A DNA stretch of 58,827 nucleotides, taken from positions 1 to 58,827 of the forward strand of contig JAGVAH010000015.1 of the NCBI GenBank assembly GCA_020060385.1, read 5' to 3'. A program made the translations under genes and the position numbers. Every line of letters starts with the position of its first letter. Positions within the stretch are counted from its first letter, which is position 1. This DNA is from Syntrophobacterales bacterium. GTDB taxonomy: Bacteria > Desulfobacterota > Desulfobaccia > Desulfobaccales > 0-14-0-80-60-11. The notes under the pieces are model-generated. The model was not told the DNA's origin. It ran no database searches and was given only the letters and a program-made list of their open reading frames with translations. Of the stretch, positions 1,518 to 1,982 are shown piece by piece.

Positions 1518-1982
1518 CTAAGAAGCGGCTTTCTCTTGGGGATGCGCCGCCAGCCAGGCGGCCCGGGCTTCCCTTTTTAAAGGGCTGGGGCCCAGCCCAA
1601 AGGCCCGCTCGGCCATCTCCTTGGCGATGGCCTGGAATCTCGGCCCTTCCGAAGAGGAGAGGTTGAACATCTCCAGCCGTTCCGGCTCCAAGCCCAGCTG
1701 CGTGAAGTCCTTTTTCAGTTTATTCACCCGTTTCTTGGCCCGGATGTTGCCCATCAGATAATGGCATTCCCCCTCCAGGCAGCCGGCCACGAAGACCGCG
1801 TCGGCGCCGCCTTCAAAGGCCTTGAGGAGGTGGAGGATGTCCACCCGGCCGGTGCAAGGCATGAGGATGATCTTGATCTCCGGGGGATATTGCAGTCGCA
1901 TCGAACCTGCCAGGTCCGCGGCGCTGTATGCTCAGTAACGGCAGCAGAAGCCGATGATTTTAGGAGTAAAAGGCGCAGTCAT
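1518..1982 (-). CDS. mvhD: MvhD-type delta subunit, probable selenoprotein (in-frame UGA = Sec17)
   Basis: Read with the TGA at 1934-1932 as selenocysteine, this frame encodes 154 residues, exactly the length of its paralogue at 569-1033. The start is ATG 1982 with a GAAAGGAGA ribosome binding site. Before the UGA it reads MTAPFTPKIIGFCCRY and after it AYSAADLAGSMRLQYPP. The paralogue reads [24 protein letters not shown], so the UGA aligns with Cys17 without any gap. Sec in this N-terminal motif is known from VhuD of Methanococcus and, as I recall, from deltaproteobacterial homologues. The gene starts 14 bases after the HdrA fusion and is surely co-transcribed with it. An automatic caller would give only the 127-residue part starting at 1901. 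A nonsense mutation is the alternative, but a hairpin follows the UGA and conservation continues after it. Confidence 0.82.
1902..1918 (-). promoter_or_regulatory. SECIS-like hairpin behind the UGA codon
   Basis: On the coding strand, 13 bases after the UGA, CGGACCT pairs with AGGTTCG (7 pairs, one of them G-U) around the loop GGC. The loop begins 20 bases after the UGA and starts with G. Bacterial SECIS elements are short hairpins right after the UGA with a G near the start of the apical loop, so this is compatible. The fold is by eye only. Confidence 0.5.

Follow-up and report, generated by a model that had tools for sequence, protein, structure and literature searches.

We found that an mvhD gene in the window, as we call the whole analysed stretch of 58,827 nucleotides from a Syntrophobacterales bacterium, almost certainly encodes a selenocysteine (Sec)-containing MvhD, with Sec inserted at the UGA of codon 17. 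The first-pass annotation had proposed a probable selenoprotein from this in-frame UGA, and the proposal is now borne out by the position of the UGA at a Cys site, the Sec machinery of the genome, the TGA kept in relatives and a frozen, constrained bacterial SECIS (bSECIS) hairpin. The features considered here are the following.

1518 to 1982, minus strand: mvhD (FlpD family, PF02662), predicted selenoprotein gene of 154 codons including one Sec, from the Pfam match and a frame that is open when TGA is read as Sec
1932 to 1934, minus strand: predicted Sec codon UGA, residue 17, in a CxxU motif; Cys in the aligned paralogues, TGA in 100 of 122 related frames
1893 to 1931, minus strand: predicted bacterial SECIS; fold of -16.4 kcal/mol, z -2.3, with frozen synonymous sites and a covarying outer pair in 77 distinct Sec genes
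569 to 1033, minus strand: 154-aa Cys-type paralogue in tandem with mvhD, without SECIS; PF02662, E 1.5e-50
1997 to 6460, minus strand: hdrL-like gene, encoding a 1487-aa HdrA that carries an insertion similar to GltD (NADPH-dependent glutamate synthase), from NCBIfam

The mvhD frame opens with an ATG at 1982-1980, its stop codon ends at 1518, and a lone in-frame TGA lies between them at 1934-1932. Its product matches PF02662 with 156.7 bits (gathering cut-off 22.3, E 3.4e-46), and the conserved Cys residues are present when it is aligned with the paralogues of the genome. Against the methanogen VhuD model NF045873 of NCBIfam it scores 149.7 bits, below the curated cut-off of 215, so it is not a methanogen VhuD orthologue in NCBI's sense. 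Ordinary ORF calling begins the gene at 1901 and yields a product of 127 aa, which confirms the earlier remark that standard gene calling loses the first 27 residues. The Cys paralogue starts with an ATG at 1033, and the UGA of the Sec copy aligns to a Cys in it (CCRYU in the Sec copy, CCRWC in the paralogue). The first reading had described a gapless alignment of two proteins of equal length with the UGA on a Cys; the equal length (154 aa each) and the UGA-Cys match stood, but the alignment is gapless only to about residue 148. Between both genes is a stretch of 478 nt (1040-1517) with no clear gene.

The source genome is a metagenome-assembled genome (MAG) of 4.15 Mb in 175 contigs, 99.95% complete and with 0.94% contamination. 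The search for selA, selB, selC and selD that had been suggested as a check was run on it and all were present: selA (597 bits), selB (364) and selD (377) lie far above their cut-offs, and selC was found as a tRNA-Sec scoring 78. Two tRNA-Sec matches were seen at the ends of contigs G000:C30 and G000:C134 (L163, L162); the idea of two genes was rejected, as the two contig ends share a 98-nt overlap and the matches probably represent one selC at an assembly break, counted twice. The selD gene (L018 / L164, G000:C115:8447-9361, minus strand) has an in-frame TGA and then a strong hairpin, CCUCCAGG GGU CCUGGAGG; judged by these features, it is itself a selenoprotein gene. The genes for YedF, a marker of selenium use, that had been reported in the window were also recovered, with two matches over the cut-off at 51885-52466 and 10356-10706. 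Both matches to this selenium-metabolism model are on the minus strand, and the one at 10356-10706 is confined to the model's C-terminal part.

Codon 17 was compared in 122 related MvhD/FlpD frames taken from the paralogues of this genome, from relatives and from one genome-contig scan, the last two sets being partly overlapping. TGA was found in 100 of them, TGC or TGT in 18-19 and another codon in three divergent ones, while TAA and TAG were found in none; L035, which is listed among the 19 TGC/TGT frames, appears misaligned. In each of 16 genomes belonging to the same genus or family, the best-matching orthologue carries one TGA, and the same holds for many others of the phylum. A TGA in G001:C166 was discarded, being near the C-terminus instead of at codon 17 and probably an ordinary stop. 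Within the source genome there is a second Sec-MvhD gene (L027, G000:C18:35375-35743, minus strand), also with UGA at codon 17 and preceded by an HdrA-like gene. It has almost the same SECIS as the window gene, despite only 57% protein identity. A genome-wide pattern search for a UGA followed by this hairpin gave exactly two sites, the window gene and this second Sec-mvhD on contig 18.

The hairpin described earlier, with a loop starting in G at a SECIS-like distance, is confirmed in its geometry and by synonymous constraint. Its apical part (1902-1918) consists of a 7-bp stem, CGGACCU (1918-1912) with AGGUUCG (1908-1902), closing a GGC loop (1911-1909) located 20 nt downstream of the UGA, and a lower helix pairs 1921-1926 with 1893-1899. 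In agreement with published bSECIS rules, which describe a loop of 3-9 nt with a G within the first two positions, a spacing of 16-37 nt and an upper stem of 4-16 bp (PMC13188914), the mvhD hairpin has suitable stem, loop and spacing. Its folding energy stands out only a little (z -2.3 over 39 nt) and was rejected as proof, since 20% of synonymous-codon shuffles fold equally well; Rfam gave no match within the window at gathering scores. It is conservation, rather than folding energy, that supports the predicted SECIS. Among 77 distinct Sec genes, the codons GAC, CTG and GCA after the UGA are each found in 77/77 and GGT in 76/77, while the 19 Cys relatives use several codons for those residues and the Cys paralogue of the window reads GCC GAC CTG GCC GGG GCC at the equivalent place. 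Third-base entropy at codons +6 to +9 after the UGA is about 0 in the Sec genes. In the 19 Cys relatives it is 0.7-1.4 bits, and most of the other conserved degenerate codons in the vicinity have values of about 0.7-2 bits. Four codons of the SECIS are rare in the neighbouring coding sequence (GCA 1/155, GGT 8/121, TCG 7/72, CGA 0/71). The outer stem pair is C-G (GCG...TCG) in 30 genes, G-C (GGG...TCC) in 39 and broken in 8/77, the switch being an Ala/Gly change coupled to a silent change of Ser codon. This covariation is clade-structured and thus counts as few events; as relatedness inflates covariation counts, the case for the SECIS rests on the synonymous constraint.

The Cys copy sitting immediately downstream could suggest that mvhD is a pseudogene, truncated by a true nonsense mutation and replaced by its paralogue. 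We consider this very improbable, because the TGA and its hairpin are conserved across genera, families and the order, the protein is conserved on either side of the TGA, the full Sec machinery is in the genome and nearly all relatives lack a Cys copy directly downstream, the Sec gene being usually alone there. Readthrough of UGA is known elsewhere in biology, and the codon might be decoded as Trp or Cys through a reassigned code or plain readthrough; we give this as little credit as a pseudogene, since the UGA takes the place of a Cys, the genome contains tRNA-Sec, selA, selB and selD, and a conserved bSECIS comes after the codon. Even less probable is an error turning TGC or TGT into TGA: although the genome is a draft assembly, this misreading, which the first-pass annotation had offered as a test, counts as refuted by the TGA at the same codon in independent MAGs of other species of the same genus and family, and the Cys paralogues of this genome have no SECIS.

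In the mechanism that we propose, the SECIS hairpin just past UGA codon 17 would recruit SelB and Sec-tRNA(Sec), and insertion of Sec at this codon would give a protein of 154 residues that contains a CxxU motif. This MvhD would bind one [2Fe-2S] cluster and carry electrons from a donating partner to an HdrA-type subunit, most likely the adjacent HdrL, whose FAD would accept them. The HdrL frame matches the HdrA2 model with 927 bits, and shows HdrA similarity over most of its length and GltD-like (glutamate-synthase small-subunit) models over residues 161-566; it contains no in-frame TGA. Its gene ends 14 nt before the ATG of mvhD, both being presumably in the same operon, and an HdrA-like gene is found upstream in nearly all the Sec-mvhD relatives having enough flank. 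HdrL may take electrons from NAD(P)H via its insertion, which resembles NAD(P)H dehydrogenases. We infer the electron-transfer role of MvhD from its homology with the MvhD chains of the solved Hdr complexes 5odc, 7bkb and 8rvu, which spans the entire domain (E about 1e-37); these chains differ in having Cys at the position of Sec (Cys16 in 5odc_D). The electron donor, the acceptor and the exact task of Sec17 in the source organism are points that we can only infer.

In the Hdr complexes, MvhD holds one [2Fe-2S] close to the bifurcating FAD, and a recent structure paper calls the mechanism of the step from cluster to FAD unknown (PMC12350162). Four divergent FlpD domains of the source genome (L032, L033, L034, L035) keep the Cys residues at 14, 43, 68 and 73, but their residue 17 is Asp, Ser, Gly or Ala, which suggests that this residue is not an obligatory ligand of the cluster. 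It is conceivable, if rather unlikely, that the Cys/Sec at residue 17, the fifth to be conserved, lies outside but next to the ligand set and that Sec17 forms a redox-active CxxU aiding the step from cluster to FAD. Other MvhD/FlpD genes (L024 at G000:C134:11031-11399 on the minus strand, L058, L146 and L165) have Cys at 17 and a UGA at residue 68 (GU-HLGECH), the second conserved Cys. Each has its own SECIS-like hairpin with a spacing of 23 nt (AUUACCU GGA AGGUAAU in L024), with compensatory changes among the four. In these four Sec would be at 68 and not at 17; the family representative is given with two Sec in a review.

The window gene adds another example to Sec-MvhD, a selenoprotein family known for a long time (PMC13188914, PMC2702500, PMC1794560). 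A list of experimentally verified prokaryotic selenoproteins includes Sec-MvhD/VhuD, a PF02662 family with CxxU whose representative has two Sec (PMC13188914). The sulfate reducer Desulfobacterium autotrophicum has four Sec-MvhD proteins, and its mvhD genes lie after hdrA and hdrL (PMC2702500). Its strain HRM2 (MvhD1/2/3/5) resembles our case in its lineage of sulfate reducers, in the placement of Sec-MvhD by hdrA/hdrL and in having Sec and Cys paralogues per genome; this likeness is drawn from the description, and its HdrL1 and HdrL3 are reported selenoproteins, unlike the HdrL of the window (PMC2702500). FrhD/MvhD of Syntrophobacter fumaroxidans and other Deltaproteobacteria belong to the same family with the same recoding and several copies per genome, but the described ones are found in hdrA-frhD-frhG-frhA operons, whereas the window mvhD comes after hdrL (PMC1794560). 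VhuD of Methanococcus and Methanocaldococcus is likewise a PF02662 protein with Sec, and transfers electrons from hydrogenase to HdrA (PMC2933860, PMC11097638). It differs in its archaeal SECIS, located in the 3'UTR, and in the VhuD model, under whose cut-off the window MvhD falls.

In Methanococcus, the Sec and Cys isoforms follow the selenium supply, with the Cys ones used at low selenium (PMC11097638). By analogy with this switch, the adjacent Cys copy of the window may take over when selenium is low. The Sec-Cys tandem was also considered as a conserved unit and rejected, as the window and only one other Sec locus (L063) have it.

The Sec-MvhD of the window leaves the existing knowledge of selenoproteins unchanged. 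Automatic annotation would shorten this mvhD and drop its CxxU motif, which is corrected here in an uncultured group of Desulfobacterota. The 77 distinct Sec genes and their frozen SECIS provide a clean comparison set, and the Sec/Cys tandem pair of the window constitutes a natural system for asking why MvhD uses selenium.
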